Under the pieces are notes generated by a model, which was not told the DNA's origin, searched no databases, and worked only from the letters and a program-made list of their open reading frames with translations. A stretch of DNA of 64,000 nt, from assembly GCA_902798825.1 (NCBI GenBank), contig CADBYI010000011.1, forward strand, positions 62,001 to 126,000. Direction: 5' to 3'. Made by a program: the position numbers and the translations under genes. Shown here one piece after another: positions 19,394-29,216 of the stretch (the stretch's first letter is position 1; each line of letters begins with the position of its first letter). The stretch comes from an uncultured Eubacteriales bacterium (GTDB lineage: Bacteria; Bacillota; Clostridia; Christensenellales; CAG-138).

Positions 19394-20563
19394 TTACTTC
19401 ACGATGTCCTTCAGGAAGGACTCGCCCGCGTGCCAGGGGGCGCCGGTGAGATAGTCATAGATGGTGGCGGCGATGTCCGCAAAGCTGCGGCGGACGCCCA
19501 AATCCACGCCGCCCTTCACCGGCCTGCCCGCCACCAGCAGGGGGATGTGCTCCCGGGTGTGATCCGTGCCGTGATGGGTGGGGTCGCAGCCGTGGTCGGC
19601 GGTGATGAAGAGGATGTCCTCGTCCTTCATGAGGCCAAGGATGTCGGGCAGCTGCTCGTCGAACCGTTCAAGAGCCCTGGCGTACCCCTCCACGTCCCGG
19701 CGATGGCCGTAGAGCATATCGAAATCCACCAGGTTGGTGAAGATGAAGCTGCCGGTGCCCTCCCGGATGAACCGCTCCGTGGCCGCCACGCCGGTCTCGT
19801 TGTTCTTGGTGTGGTCCACCACGTCGATGCCCCGATGGCAGAAGATGTCCTCGATCTTGCCCACGGCCACCACAGGGAGGCCCTGTTCATGGAGACCGTC
19901 CAGGATGGTGTCCTCAAAGGGCGGGATGGCGTAGTCCTTCCGGTTCTCCGTGCGGACGTAGTGGCCGTCCTTCCTGGTGAAGGGGCGGGCGATGACCCGG
20001 CCCACCAGATACTCGCCCTGGAGCATCTCCCGGGCGATCTCGCAGATGCGGTAGAGCTCCTCCAGGGGGATGACCTCCTCCGAGGCCGCCACCTGGAACA
20101 CGCTGTCCGCGGAGGTGTAAACGATGGGTTTGCCGGTCCTCACATGCTCGTCGCCCAGCCGCTCGATGATCTCGGTGCCGCTGGCCACCTCGTTGCCCAG
20201 GGTGCTCCGGCCGATCTTCGCCTCGAACTCGTCCATGAGGGCACGGGGAAAGCCGTTGGGGAAGGTCTTGAAGGCCGTCTTTTGGATGAGGCCCGCCATC
20301 TCCCAATGGCCGCAGGTGGTGTCCTTGGCGTGGGTCACCTCCCTGCACTTGCCGAAGGCGCCCTCCACGGGGCCTTCCCACCTGGGCAGGGGGCTGCCCT
20401 CGATATGGCCGATGCCCAGTTTACGCATGTTGGGGATGTGCAGGGGGCGCCGCTCCTCGATATGCCCCAGGGTGTTGGCCCCCACGTCATCGAACTCGAC
20501 GGCGTCGGGGAGCTCGCCGATGCCTACGCTGTCCAAAACGATCAAAATGGCTCTCTTGCTCAT
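19394..20563 (-). CDS. deoB: Phosphopentomutase DeoB
   Basis: Interconverts (deoxy)ribose 1- and 5-phosphates in nucleoside salvage. The start ATG 20563 has GGGAG upstream and gives MSKRAILIVLDSVGIGELPDA and 389 residues, the family length. Alkaline-phosphatase-superfamily metal motifs are present: DSVGIG at the N-terminus, and TADHGCDPTHHGTDHTRE near the C-terminus. In Bacillus, drm (deoB) also precedes dacF. Confidence 0.97.
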   Translation of the reverse strand: MSKRAILIVLDSVGIGELPDAVEFDDVGANTLGHIEERRPLHIPNMRKLGIGHIEGSPLPRWEGPVEGAFGKCREVTHAKDTTCGHWEMAGLIQKTAFKTFPNGFPRALMDEFEAKIGRSTLGNEVASGTEIIERLGDEHVRTGKPIVYTSADSVFQVAASEEVIPLEELYRICEIAREMLQGEYLVGRVIARPFTRKDGHYVRTENRKDYAIPPFEDTILDGLHEQGLPVVAVGKIEDIFCHRGIDVVDHTKNNETGVAATERFIREGTGSFIFTNLVDFDMLYGHRRDVEGYARALERFDEQLPDILGLMKDEDILFITADHGCDPTHHGTDHTREHIPLLVAGRPVKGGVDLGVRRSFADIAATIYDYLTGAPWHAGESFLKDIVK

Positions 20564-20591: not shown

Positions 20592-21392
20592 TCAGTATAC
20601 CAGATCCCGGACCGTTTGACAACCGTCCGCCGCTTGCTCCCGCGCATTGATCCGGCGCAGTTCCCGCAAAAAGGCGTCCTGGCCCCGATCGTAGGGCAGG
20701 AGCGTCTTCACGTGCTCATAGACGGCGAAGAGGAACTCCCCGTTGGTGGGCATGCCCTGCTTGTCCTGGGCGCTGTAGCCGAAGTATTGGCGCTGGACGG
20801 CCTTGCCCGCCAGCCGCCAGCAGCTCTCCACCCCGTGGCGCATGGCCCTATCCACCATGACCGGCGAGGAGTTGTGGCGCTGGGACAGGGTGGGATAGAG
20901 CTGCTGCATCAGCTTGATCCGGGAGGGATAGGCCATCTCGGACAGCAGGCCCACGCCGTCGGAAAAGTACCGAAAGGCCAGCAGGTGTCTTGGCACGTTC
21001 AAAGCGTCCAGCGAGCACTGGGCCTGGAGGGTGAACCAGCCCCGGCGGCCGCCCTCCCGATCCTCCTCGCCGAGAAGAAGCCCCACCCGCCGCAGCACCA
21101 GCTCCAGCACCAGGGGCTTATAGAACACGAAAACCGCCTGTGAGACCGCTTCCCCGCAGAGGATCTCCTCCCGTTCCGCCAGCAAGAACAAGGGCACCCC
21201 CAACGCTTGACACCTGTCCGCCAGGGCCCGGCCCGCGCCGAACAGGAGCCCGTCCTCCGCCAGCAGAAAACCCGTCCCCGCCTCCACTCTATCCGAAACC
21301 GCCACGCCCCGGGCCGACAGATAGGCTTCCGCCCGCTGCTGATCGGCGGGCCTTAGCAGCAAACAGGCCCTTCGTTCCCCCTGCTCCTTCAT
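20592..21392 (-). CDS. Spo0A-like paralogue with degenerate receiver domain
   Basis: The 266-residue protein has a clear Spo0A C-terminal DNA-binding domain (about residues 130-235). NVPRHLLAFRYFSDG, LYPTLSQRHNSS, VDRAMRHGVESCW and MPTNGEFLFAVYEHVK align with the Spo0A positions. The N-terminal 120 residues keep a receiver-like outline and the KP pair (FYKPLV), but I cannot find a properly placed phospho-acceptor Asp or acidic pocket. Its ATG overlaps the spo0A stop by 4 nt, so both are made from one mRNA. I infer a phosphorylation-independent partner or antagonist of Spo0A. Confidence 0.8.
   Translation of the reverse strand: MKEQGERRACLLLRPADQQRAEAYLSARGVAVSDRVEAGTGFLLAEDGLLFGAGRALADRCQALGVPLFLLAEREEILCGEAVSQAVFVFYKPLVLELVLRRVGLLLGEEDREGGRRGWFTLQAQCSLDALNVPRHLLAFRYFSDGVGLLSEMAYPSRIKLMQQLYPTLSQRHNSSPVMVDRAMRHGVESCWRLAGKAVQRQYFGYSAQDKQGMPTNGEFLFAVYEHVKTLLPYDRGQDAFLRELRRINAREQAADGCQTVRDLVY
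20594..20622 (-). promoter_or_regulatory. deoB promoter
   Basis: TTGTCA (20617-20622), 17-nt spacer, TATACT (20594-20599) on the minus strand. It lies inside the last codons of the upstream spo0A-like gene. Confidence 0.7.
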
Positions 21393-22180
21393 GCCCGACG
21401 CGCCTCCTCCCTAAGGTACAAGCCCCCGTCATAGGGGCTGGTCAGGCGCATCCGCACCCGGTCCGCCACCATGTAGATGAAGGCGGAGTTGGAGGGCGTG
21501 TCCCGGTGGGCCTCCACGGTGTAGCCGAAGAAGGTTTGGATGGTGTTGATGTCTGCCCGCATCCAGGCGCACTCGATGGCGTGGCGCATGGCATGCTCGG
21601 CCATGGACACGGAGGTGCCGCAGAGCCGGGCGGTGGCGGGATAGATGTCCTTCATAACGGAGAGCCGGGCGGGATGGTCCACACAGTTCACCAGCTTGAT
21701 GGCCTCCCGCAGCAGGTGGTAACCCTGCAGATGGGGTGGCACGCCCAGGGAAAAGAGGGTGCGGGTCACCAGATACTCCACATACCCGAGATCGGGCCGG
21801 ACTGCCGGCGATTCGCCCCGGGTCAGGGCATAGAGCTGGCTGGCGGTCTTCCTGGGGTCCAGGGGCTTCAAAAAGCAGTAGGCGATCTCGTCCCCCATGC
21901 GCTCCAGCACGGAGCTGGTCCCCTCCCCCGCCATGACGAAGAGCTGGGGCCGCCTTAAAAGCGGCAGCGAGCAGATCGCCTCCAGGATCTCCAGCCCGTC
22001 GATGCCCGGCAGCTCCAGGTCGATGAGCAGCACGTCGGTGCGCTCCTCCATATACCGCTCCAAAAGCTCCCTGCCGTCCCGCAAAACGGGCAATACGTGA
22101 AACTGTTTCCCCCGAATCAGCATGGTCTGCAGACTCTCTGCCGTTCCCATGTCCGCGCTGACGATACGAAGTGTCTTCAT
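21389..22180 (-). CDS. spo0A: Sporulation master response regulator Spo0A
   Basis: Response regulator that commits the cell to sporulation when phosphorylated. The 263-residue protein has a receiver with Asp10, phospho-acceptor Asp54 (LLIDLELPG) and Lys105 (FLKP). The usual Thr/Ser switch position appears to be Ala84. The C-terminal domain matches Spo0A closely: GVPPHLQGYHLLREAI, DIYPATARLCGTS, AEHAMRHAIECAW, FFGYTVEAHRDTPSNSAFI. ATG 22180 is preceded by GGGAGGTCAC. It lies downstream of spoIVB, the arrangement conserved in endospore formers. Confidence 0.96.
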   Translation of the reverse strand: MKTLRIVSADMGTAESLQTMLIRGKQFHVLPVLRDGRELLERYMEERTDVLLIDLELPGIDGLEILEAICSLPLLRRPQLFVMAGEGTSSVLERMGDEIAYCFLKPLDPRKTASQLYALTRGESPAVRPDLGYVEYLVTRTLFSLGVPPHLQGYHLLREAIKLVNCVDHPARLSVMKDIYPATARLCGTSVSMAEHAMRHAIECAWMRADINTIQTFFGYTVEAHRDTPSNSAFIYMVADRVRMRLTSPYDGGLYLREEARRA

Positions 22181-22252
22181 GTGACCTCCCTGCTTATAAT
22201 GTGTTTTGATTTGAATAAATATGAAACCGACTTGTTTCCCGGTTCGTTTCGT

Positions 22253-22298
22253 ATTTTACCCGAAATTCCGCTTTATTTCAAGCCGGGAACCGACAAAA
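22253..22298 (-). promoter_or_regulatory. spo0A promoter with adjacent 0A-box-like site
   Basis: TTGAAA (22276-22281), 17-nt spacer, TAAAAT (22253-22258) on the minus strand. TTTTGTCG (22291-22298) resembles an 0A box 9 nt upstream of the -35. An imperfect dyad GTTCCCGG...CCGGGAAAC flanks the promoter. Autoregulation by Spo0A is known in Bacillus; here it is inferred. Confidence 0.6.
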
Positions 22299-22369
22299 AT
22301 AGCGCAAATTGTATGAATAATTAATGAATATCACACAATTCTGCATTTTTGCATCCCATTCGCTTTTTT

Positions 22370-23551
22370 CTAAAACAGCTTCTCCAGCATCCATTGGGCA
22401 TAGACGCAGTAGCCCCTTTTGGGCTCGTTGACGAACACATGGGTCACCACCCCCACCAGGCGGCCGTTCTGGACCAGGGGACTGCCGGACATGCCGGGAA
22501 CGATGCCGCCGGTGAGGGCGATAAGGTCCGGGTCCGTCACCTCCACCATCATGCCCTGGACTCCGGGGGCGCTCTGGACCTTCAGGCGGATGATCCGGCA
22601 ATCATACCCCCGCCAGCTGCCGTCCGCCGCGGAATAGAGGGTGGCGTCCCCGGTCTGGACCTGGGCCGCCGCAGCCAGGGGCACCCGGCTCCCCCAGGGA
22701 TCGTCGCCGCCCAGCCAGGGGCCCGCCACCCCGTAGTCCCCGTTGATGTCGATGCGGCCCACGGCGTCCGCCGCCCGAGTGGAGAAGGTACCCATCAGCT
22801 CCCCCACCTGGCCCGCATCCGCCCGGACCAGATCGGTGATGGCCGCGGGGGAAACGTACCCCCGATCGGTGAGTAGGGTGAAGCCCGTGTCCACGTCCGC
22901 CACGCCGTGGCCCAGGGCGCAGAACCGATCCCCCTTGCAAAAGGACAGGGTACCGATGCCGGAGGTGCTTTCCCGGACCCAGGCCCCCAGCTTCCTATGG
23001 CCCGTGGTCCCCTCCGGAACGGGCCGCAGGGACAGGGCCAGGGTGTCGCCCTTGCGGCGGACCGTCAGCTCCACCTGCTCCTTCCCCTGCAGCAGGGACA
23101 TAAGGCCCTGGGCGCCGACGACCTCCTGTCCGTCCACCGCCAGGATGGAATCCCCCTTTTTCAGCCCCCCGGCGGCGGCCGGCGACAGGGGCCCGCTTTC
23201 CGTCTCCACCGTGGTCAGGCCCACCACCTGGACCCCCTTGGTGTAGAGAACGATGCCCACGGCCTGTCCCCCCAGCCGCACGGTGGGAAGGGTGCTCACC
23301 TCCCGAACGGTCCTGAGGGGCAGAAGGCCCAGGAGGGCATAGGTCCGCTCCCGGGTCATGAGGCGCTCGTCTTCGCTGCTTCGGACGGGACGGGCCCGGG
23401 TCCGGACGAGGGGCCCCGCCTCCGCCGCCATCGTTCCCGGCTCCATGGCCTCCGGCAGAGCCCGAAGAGTCGCCATGGCCGGGGAAAAATACCAGAAAAA
23501 CAGCAGGGCGATGAGCCCCGCCGCTATCCTTTTTCTCGTCCCTTCCTTCAT
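22370..23551 (-). CDS. spoIVB: SpoIVB serine peptidase
   Basis: Forespore-secreted protease that starts pro-sigma-K activation by cutting SpoIVFA. The 393-residue product has an N-terminal membrane anchor (about 9-27), a PDZ domain (about 95-175, GGLKKGDSILAVDGQEV) and a peptidase domain. His215 (ALGHGVAD), Asp342 and Ser357 (GMSGSP) match the Bacillus triad by spacing. No Shine-Dalgarno precedes ATG 23551; instead a sigma-G-like promoter lies 5 nt upstream. Confidence 0.95.
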   Translation of the reverse strand: MKEGTRKRIAAGLIALLFFWYFSPAMATLRALPEAMEPGTMAAEAGPLVRTRARPVRSSEDERLMTRERTYALLGLLPLRTVREVSTLPTVRLGGQAVGIVLYTKGVQVVGLTTVETESGPLSPAAAGGLKKGDSILAVDGQEVVGAQGLMSLLQGKEQVELTVRRKGDTLALSLRPVPEGTTGHRKLGAWVRESTSGIGTLSFCKGDRFCALGHGVADVDTGFTLLTDRGYVSPAAITDLVRADAGQVGELMGTFSTRAADAVGRIDINGDYGVAGPWLGGDDPWGSRVPLAAAAQVQTGDATLYSAADGSWRGYDCRIIRLKVQSAPGVQGMMVEVTDPDLIALTGGIVPGMSGSPLVQNGRLVGVVTHVFVNEPKRGYCVYAQWMLEKLF

Positions 23552-27938: not shown

Positions 27939-29216
27939 TCACGCCCCGTATTCCACTGTCTTCACGTCCGTGCGGAGGGTGTCGGGGTAGTGGATCAGGC
28001 GGCGCGTGATGGTGATTTCCACGGTGCCCGCCTCCGGCAGGGAGGCCGGCCGGGGGACCACCAGGGCGTAGGCATAGCGGGTGCCCTGGGAATAGGCGAC
28101 CTCGGTCCGCTCCAGATGGGCGCCCTCGCCGGAGATCATCTGGCCGTCGGCCAGGATCGTGACGGCCACGTCCCCGGGGCCAAGGGTCAGGCCCTGGCCG
28201 TAGGCCACGTTCAACGCCCCGTAGGGAGAGGGATCGATGCGGATGACGAAGGCGTCGGGATAGGTGGTCTCCTCCATAAAGTAGCTCAGGAAGTCCTCCG
28301 AGGGGTCCTTGAGATCGTAGCGGCCGCTGATCCACAGCTCATCGGCAGGCTCCGCCCGCTCGGTGAAGGTCTCCTCCGCCCCGTCGCTGCCGGTAACGGT
28401 ATAGGTCACCTCCAGGATCGGGTCGGGCTCGTAGCCCTGGCGCAGCAGGTCCACGTGGCTTTGCACATATTCCTCGGTAAACAGGTCGTAATCCAGGCGC
28501 TCGAACCGGCCCTGGGCGATCTCCTCCGCCGTCAGGGCGTGCTCCCAGAGAAGCTCTCCGCCGTGCCCCGGGTCCACCAGACGGACCGTGACGGCGGACA
28601 TCCGCGCCTGCCCCTCCAGCTCCACCGCCATATGATAGACCTCACTGGTCCGATAGAAGACCAGATGGGCGGCGGGGACGATCACCGGCTCCGGCGTGGG
28701 CGTGGCCGTGGGCTCCGGCGTGGGGGTCGGCGTCGGCGTCGGTGTGGGCGTAGGCGTCGGAGTAGGCGTAGGTTTCGGCGTGGGCGTAGGCGTTGGCGTC
28801 GGTGTGGGCGTAGGCGTTGGCGTCGGTGTTGGAGTAGGCGTAGGCGTCGGTGTGGGCGTCGGCATTGGCGTAGGCGTTGGCGTCGGTGTTGGAGTAGGCG
28901 TAGGTGTAGGTGTGGGGGTTGGCGTGGCCGTAGGCGTGGGCTCGGCGGTGGCAACGGCCGCCACCGCCAGGGGCGTGGGCGTGGGCTCAGGGACCGTCGT
29001 TTTCGCCTGGGGGAGGCCCAAAAGGCCCGCCACGGTCGCCAGACCCAGCGAGGCCATGACGCCCAGGAGGCGGCGCATCAGGGACTTTTTCTTCGCGACG
29101 GGCGCGCTCACCCGCCCGCTGCCGAATTCGGGCGGCGGCGGGGTGATGGGCTCCTGGACCGGCGAAAATTCCTCCGGGGGCCGACTATACTCCCTGTCGT
29201 TCCGGGCATCTCCCAT
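27939..29216 (-). CDS. Membrane-anchored protein with a long Thr-Pro repeat; function unknown
   Basis: Product of 425 residues. A charged cytoplasmic N-terminus (1-47) is followed by one membrane helix (about 49-68, [19 protein letters not shown]). About 95 residues of almost pure Thr-Pro dipeptides with scattered Ala, Met and Lys follow. The 255-residue outside domain (from about [16 protein letters not shown]) is predicted rich in beta-strands; I do not recognise it. The linker should span the cell wall. ATG 29216 lies 6 nt after the MscS stop without a clear ribosome site, so translation is probably coupled. Confidence 0.7.
28685..28985 (-). repeat. Low-complexity Thr-Pro coding repeat
   Basis: About 300 nt of a 6-nt period (ACNCCN on the minus strand) inside the preceding gene. 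Codon choice in the third base varies, which suggests selection on the protein or old slippage. The plus strand reads as a false poly Gly-Val frame. Confidence 0.85.

Follow-up and report, generated by a model that had tools for sequence, protein, structure and literature searches.

Spo0A is usually regarded as a conserved switch operated by phosphorylation. In the window, the whole stretch of 64,000 nucleotides analysed here, the position directly behind spoIVB, where spo0A is usually found, is held by a tandem of two overlapping Spo0A-type genes, here called A and B, which raises the question of whether either is the Spo0A of this genome and what the pair might do. The reading we prefer, at a probability of roughly 0.5, is that the two proteins work jointly as a DNA-binding regulator of the Spo0A type, largely independent of phosphorylation, alongside a canonical Spo0A.

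Two Spo0A-type genes between spoIVB and deoB

The gene order on the minus strand is spoIVB, A, B and deoB, with the following features in window coordinates:

22370–23551, minus strand: spoIVB, the upstream neighbour, marking the ancestral spo0A locus (PF05580 match at G000:C11:84385-84996)
22313–22330, minus strand: two TATTCAT repeats, 11 nt apart, a speculative operator, recognisable across most of the genus
22253–22281, minus strand: promoter-like TTGAAA-17-TAAAAT upstream of A (consensus match only)
22185–22190, minus strand: GGGAGG ribosome-binding site of A
21389–22180, minus strand: gene A, a Spo0A paralogue of 263 aa (PF08769; PF00072, 41.6 bits)
21815–22180, minus strand: receiver domain of A, residues 1–122 (Asp10, Asp54 and Lys105 kept)
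21446–21775, minus strand: Spo0A_C (DNA-binding) domain of A, residues 136–245 (PF08769)
21389–21392, minus strand: ATGA, overlap of the A stop and B start codons
20592–21392, minus strand: gene B, a Spo0A paralogue of 266 aa (PF08769, alignment)
21075–21392, minus strand: receiver remnant of B, residues 1–106 (without alpha2; Glu46 at the phospho-Asp column; Lys92 kept)
20697–21011, minus strand: Spo0A_C domain of B, residues 128–232 (PF08769)
19394–20563, minus strand: deoB (phosphopentomutase), the downstream neighbour (start set at an internal ATG, MSKRAIL)

The earlier note, made from the sequence alone, had described two overlapping Spo0A-type genes behind spoIVB, the second retaining its DNA-binding domain, and both points hold: A and B each contain a Spo0A_C domain (PF08769, cut-off 25 bits) at 99.4 bits (E=1.4e-28) and 66.9 bits (E=1.7e-18), respectively. 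Chance can be excluded as an origin of this arrangement, since the pair is conserved across eight further genomes from the genus, as well as in three more of the family's genera. In AlphaFold models built on shallow alignments (14 sequences for A, 11 for B) the Spo0A_C fold of both proteins superposes on 1lq1/1fc3 chains with TM scores of 0.82–0.88. Neither protein reaches the TIGR02875 equivalog cut-off of 200 bits (A 145.7 bits, B 56.1 bits), and the complete phosphorylation site (acidic pair, Asp, Thr/Ser and Lys) is absent from both.

The same note took the first gene to be canonical, a claim which does not survive the TIGR02875 score of A, its incomplete acidic pair and the residue at its Thr/Ser column, where the window species has Ala and some relatives have Thr. 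The A receiver retains Asp54 and Lys105 together with a single acidic residue, Asp10, the acidic pair being reduced to at most one residue, and the shallow-alignment model of A contains a complete receiver (TM 0.83–0.86 to solved Spo0A receivers). Phosphorylation of A would still be possible given these three residues, so A could have stayed a phosphorylated regulator with B as its non-phosphorylated modulator, a reading with which the Thr of some species and the full receiver fold agree. We consider it decidedly unlikely in view of the reduced acidic pair, the Ala of the window species and the A receivers of genus g22, which are degenerate throughout.

The domain search gave no Response_reg (Pfam receiver) match in B, which has no acidic pair and carries Glu46 at the Asp56 (phospho-Asp) column, where every aligned genome from the window genus has Glu and some other genera have Asp. 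The predicted N-terminus of B is receiver-like but without alpha2, and matches isolated receivers weakly (TM up to ~0.63, E > 0.001, from a shallow alignment). The claim that the second receiver lacks a phospho-acceptor pocket is thus upheld, and structure prediction, proposed as a check, restored no such site in B, as the model read with the alignment shows. B appears to be of the pseudoreceiver type, with a predicted receiver-like fold and no phospho-acceptor site. In g22 the linked B has lost its receiver and is an effector-only protein of ~160 aa, and tree branch lengths show its effector domain evolving at a slower pace than the effector domain of A. Of Arg211, Glu213 and Arg214, which we take to be the recognition-helix residues of weight in Spo0A (1LQ1), the Arg214 column is His in nearly all A-type proteins, and Arg is kept there by B in the window genus.

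The canonical Spo0A is encoded elsewhere

A third Spo0A_C gene of the genome, on contig C4, scores 269.8 bits against TIGR02875, and all five residues of its receiver phosphorylation site (DD/D/S/K) are intact. The C4 gene is the canonical Spo0A of this genome; A and B, at the ancestral spoIVB-spo0A-deoB locus, are paralogues, and the identification of A as canonical Spo0A is ruled out by its TIGR02875 score together with this intact third gene.

Outside this order, the genomes of the class that were sampled show an intact phosphorylation site wherever a full-length Spo0A was readable behind spoIVB in the DNA retrieved. Within the order, most genomes encode both an unlinked Spo0A, whose helix signature is close to SKVERAIRHAIEVAW, and a spoIVB-linked copy, and the linked copies range from nearly intact (e.g. 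G103 and G123) to effector-only (G146 and G140). The number of Spo0A_C proteins is expanded in some genomes, with nine matches in G136, eight in G166 and six in G289.

A separate observation concerns the unlinked, otherwise ‘canonical’ Spo0A proteins of the family outside the window genus. The Asp56 column is Glu in 15 of 24 of these (L036-L038, L040, L042-L046, L049-L051 and L054-L056), and the second acidic residue of the same 15 proteins is Gly or Ser, so phosphorylation may no longer control even the master regulator there.

Spo0A_C copies apart, the 3' end of spoIVB is duplicated in some genomes as stretches of 115–167 nt, mostly 92–95% identical, which flank 2–6 kb of inserted DNA:

L274: 554–685 and 6178–6309
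L275: 1055–1169 and 4575–4689
L276: 464–630, 4688–4854 and 7133–7299

The L274 insert holds, by eye, glycyl-radical-enzyme-like genes, and no integrase was seen in it; spoIVB looks like a recurrent insertion site. Elsewhere in the window (27939–29216) one ORF contains a long linker of Pro-Thr repeats and may encode a surface or secreted protein.

Phylogeny and origin of the pair

The unlinked Spo0A copies of the order form a single clade (support 100/100), which includes one long-branched extra copy of G026, and the duplication into linked and unlinked copies is therefore old. The tree points to a spoIVB-linked copy that is old and order-wide, and in most genera examined of the window's family it lies between spoIVB and deoB. 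Among the linked copies A and B are sister clades, B being monophyletic (100/98) and A less firmly so (90/89), with rows drawn from genera g1, g10, g22 and g26. The deep branching order is uncertain because the alignments are short (117–121 columns) and several branches long. Phylogeny, suggested in the earlier note as a means of seeing whether the duplication is lineage-wide, indicates that it is: the B clade spans four genera, and the duplication into A and B appears to predate the split of at least four genera of the family. Horizontal origin of the pair is unsupported, as A and B fall among the spoIVB-linked copies and synteny is kept.

Co-retention, fusions and selection

A and B are jointly present in 29 genomes (in g22 genomes G058, G064, G073 and G076 the pair was read from adjacent matches only), and a lone copy occurs only in G065 (B) and G067 (A), both incomplete. 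Two genomes (G055 and G072) gave weak A/B matches, and seven further genomes of A/B genera have neither gene. Overlapping stop and start codons are found in all eight relatives from the genus (ATGA in seven, GTGA in one) and the overlap is kept in 7/7 g22 pairs examined. This conservation makes it probable that A and B are co-translated, in line with the translational coupling proposed earlier. In G074 and G075, both from metagenome assemblies, A and B are fused in a single reading frame, and as these genomes are not sisters in the tree, two fusion events are likely.

Joint presence, gene overlap and two likely independent fusions argue against A and B having sub- or neofunctionalised into independent regulators, each with a regulon of its own and no complex between them. 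Differing recognition helices, differing evolutionary rates and five genomes (G021, G022, G061, G068 and G070) in which both genes are kept though far apart or on different contigs would suit such an arrangement, which we regard as rather unlikely. The unlinked genes also count against joint action of A and B, our preferred reading, as does the part of the phosphorylation site that A keeps.

The frames of A and B are intact, free of stops, in nine genomes of the genus. Median dN/dS among these is 0.20 for A, 0.35 for B and 0.05 for canonical Spo0A, and within B it is 0.45 for the receiver and 0.22 for the effector. In eight receiver comparisons, which share ancestry and are not independent, the observed dN/dS lies under at least 98% of neutral simulations. 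That A and B are decaying duplicates without function, as the long branches and a B receiver under relaxed selection might suggest, is scarcely credible given a B clade across four genera, the open frames, dN/dS below neutral and the slow-evolving B effector domain of g22. A paralogue unique to this genome and showing decay, named earlier as grounds for refutation, is not what was found, and tree, intact frames and selection rule out a pseudogene or recent duplicate.

Control of A and relation to sporulation

The -35 and -10 elements of A and the TATTCAT repeats are recognisable in most of the window genus. No TGTCGAA, the 0A-box core, was found upstream of A in the window genus, ruling out 0A-box control of A there through a consensus core. 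Five A genes elsewhere in the family do have the core upstream, against a chance expectation of ~0.8 in 24 such regions by a simple 7-mer count, the genomes being related.

SpoIVA was matched in 10 of 12 genomes of the window genus, one match being a fragment, and in A/B-bearing genomes of other genera, G021 excepted. No SpoIVA match was obtained in five g24 genomes; where the surroundings were read, deoB lies after the linked copy, which has no spoIVB next to it, and canonical Spo0A was not found in the four that were searched again. A separate effector-only Spo0A_C protein of 123–133 aa (L269-L272) is also kept in g24 genomes without a SpoIVA match. In genus g56 SpoIVA is unmatched in 5/5 genomes and PF05580 in four, and two Spo0A-type genes are kept. 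The persistence of linked or Spo0A-type copies without detectable SpoIVA suggests that the linked lineage has a role apart from sporulation.

These data bear on the possibility that A, B or both brake sporulation, by pairing with canonical Spo0A or by filling 0A boxes unphosphorylated and so competing for them. The retained Spo0A_C domains, the Arg that B proteins of the window genus keep at the Arg214 column and SpoIVA in most A/B-bearing genera are compatible with it, and the five upstream cores in other genera would fit feedback. The mostly His residue of A-type proteins at that column, the missing core in the window genus and the survival of the linked lineage without detectable SpoIVA weigh against a brake, which we hold to be a live but rather unlikely rival.

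Putative function of A and B

In the scheme we favour, joint regulation by A and B, an old duplication would have left a conserved canonical Spo0A elsewhere and the spoIVB-linked copy free to diverge, the latter then giving rise to A and B by a further duplication within part of one family. Expression of the overlapping genes from a vegetative-type promoter would probably yield both proteins together, and these would most likely form one heteromeric Spo0A-type regulator largely off the phosphorylation switch, their receivers serving as dimerisation or scaffold domains, with that of linked B lost in g22. The isolated effector domain of Spo0A binds its targets without phosphorylation (PMC3485338). 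Complex formation, DNA binding, phosphate independence and targets are what we infer for A and B; since their recognition helices differ, the sites read by such a complex probably either differ from the classical 0A box or do no more than overlap with it. A stricter form of the model, to which we give somewhat less than an even chance, is an obligate, phosphorylation-free heterodimer of two Spo0A-derived pseudo-response regulators at the ancestral spo0A locus, which would recognise a mixed DNA site and provide a second, constitutive arm beside canonical Spo0A.

Comparison with known systems

The presence of spo0A serves as a first marker of sporulation potential (e.g. PMC11536998). The genes at the textbook spo0A position in these uncultured gut Clostridia are not canonical spo0A, a warning against annotation by position or by effector domain alone. 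Stepwise receiver loss, readable across living genera, provides a natural series for a two-component regulator possibly turning phosphate-independent.

No described system combining the traits of A and B was found in the open-access literature, subscription papers lying mostly outside the search, and the earlier note likewise knew of none. Canonical Spo0A (TIGR02875; B. subtilis and contig C4) shares with A and B its domain order, the Spo0A_C fold and the position behind spoIVB, whereas A and B score below the TIGR02875 cut-off, have an incomplete (A) or lost (B) phosphorylation site, stand in tandem and are not the canonical copy of their genome. Clostridium thermocellum likewise has a second Spo0A gene beside its primary one, Clo1313_0637, with a reported 49% identity to B. 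subtilis Spo0A; neither tandem arrangement nor receiver loss is described for it (PMC4890492). A phage-borne truncated Spo0A resembles the linked B of g22 in having an effector domain without a receiver; it is viral, whereas linked B is chromosomal, lies at the ancestral locus and stems from stepwise receiver loss (PMC10294663). CmrR and CmrT of Clostridioides difficile form a pair of co-regulated response regulators, of which one is probably a pseudoreceiver, and the published data suggest that they heterodimerise; unlike A and B, they belong to the OmpR family, are not Spo0A-derived and include a typical receiver, that of CmrR (PMC12548384). Second Spo0A homologues, receiver-less phage Spo0A and pseudoreceiver pairs are thus each known separately.
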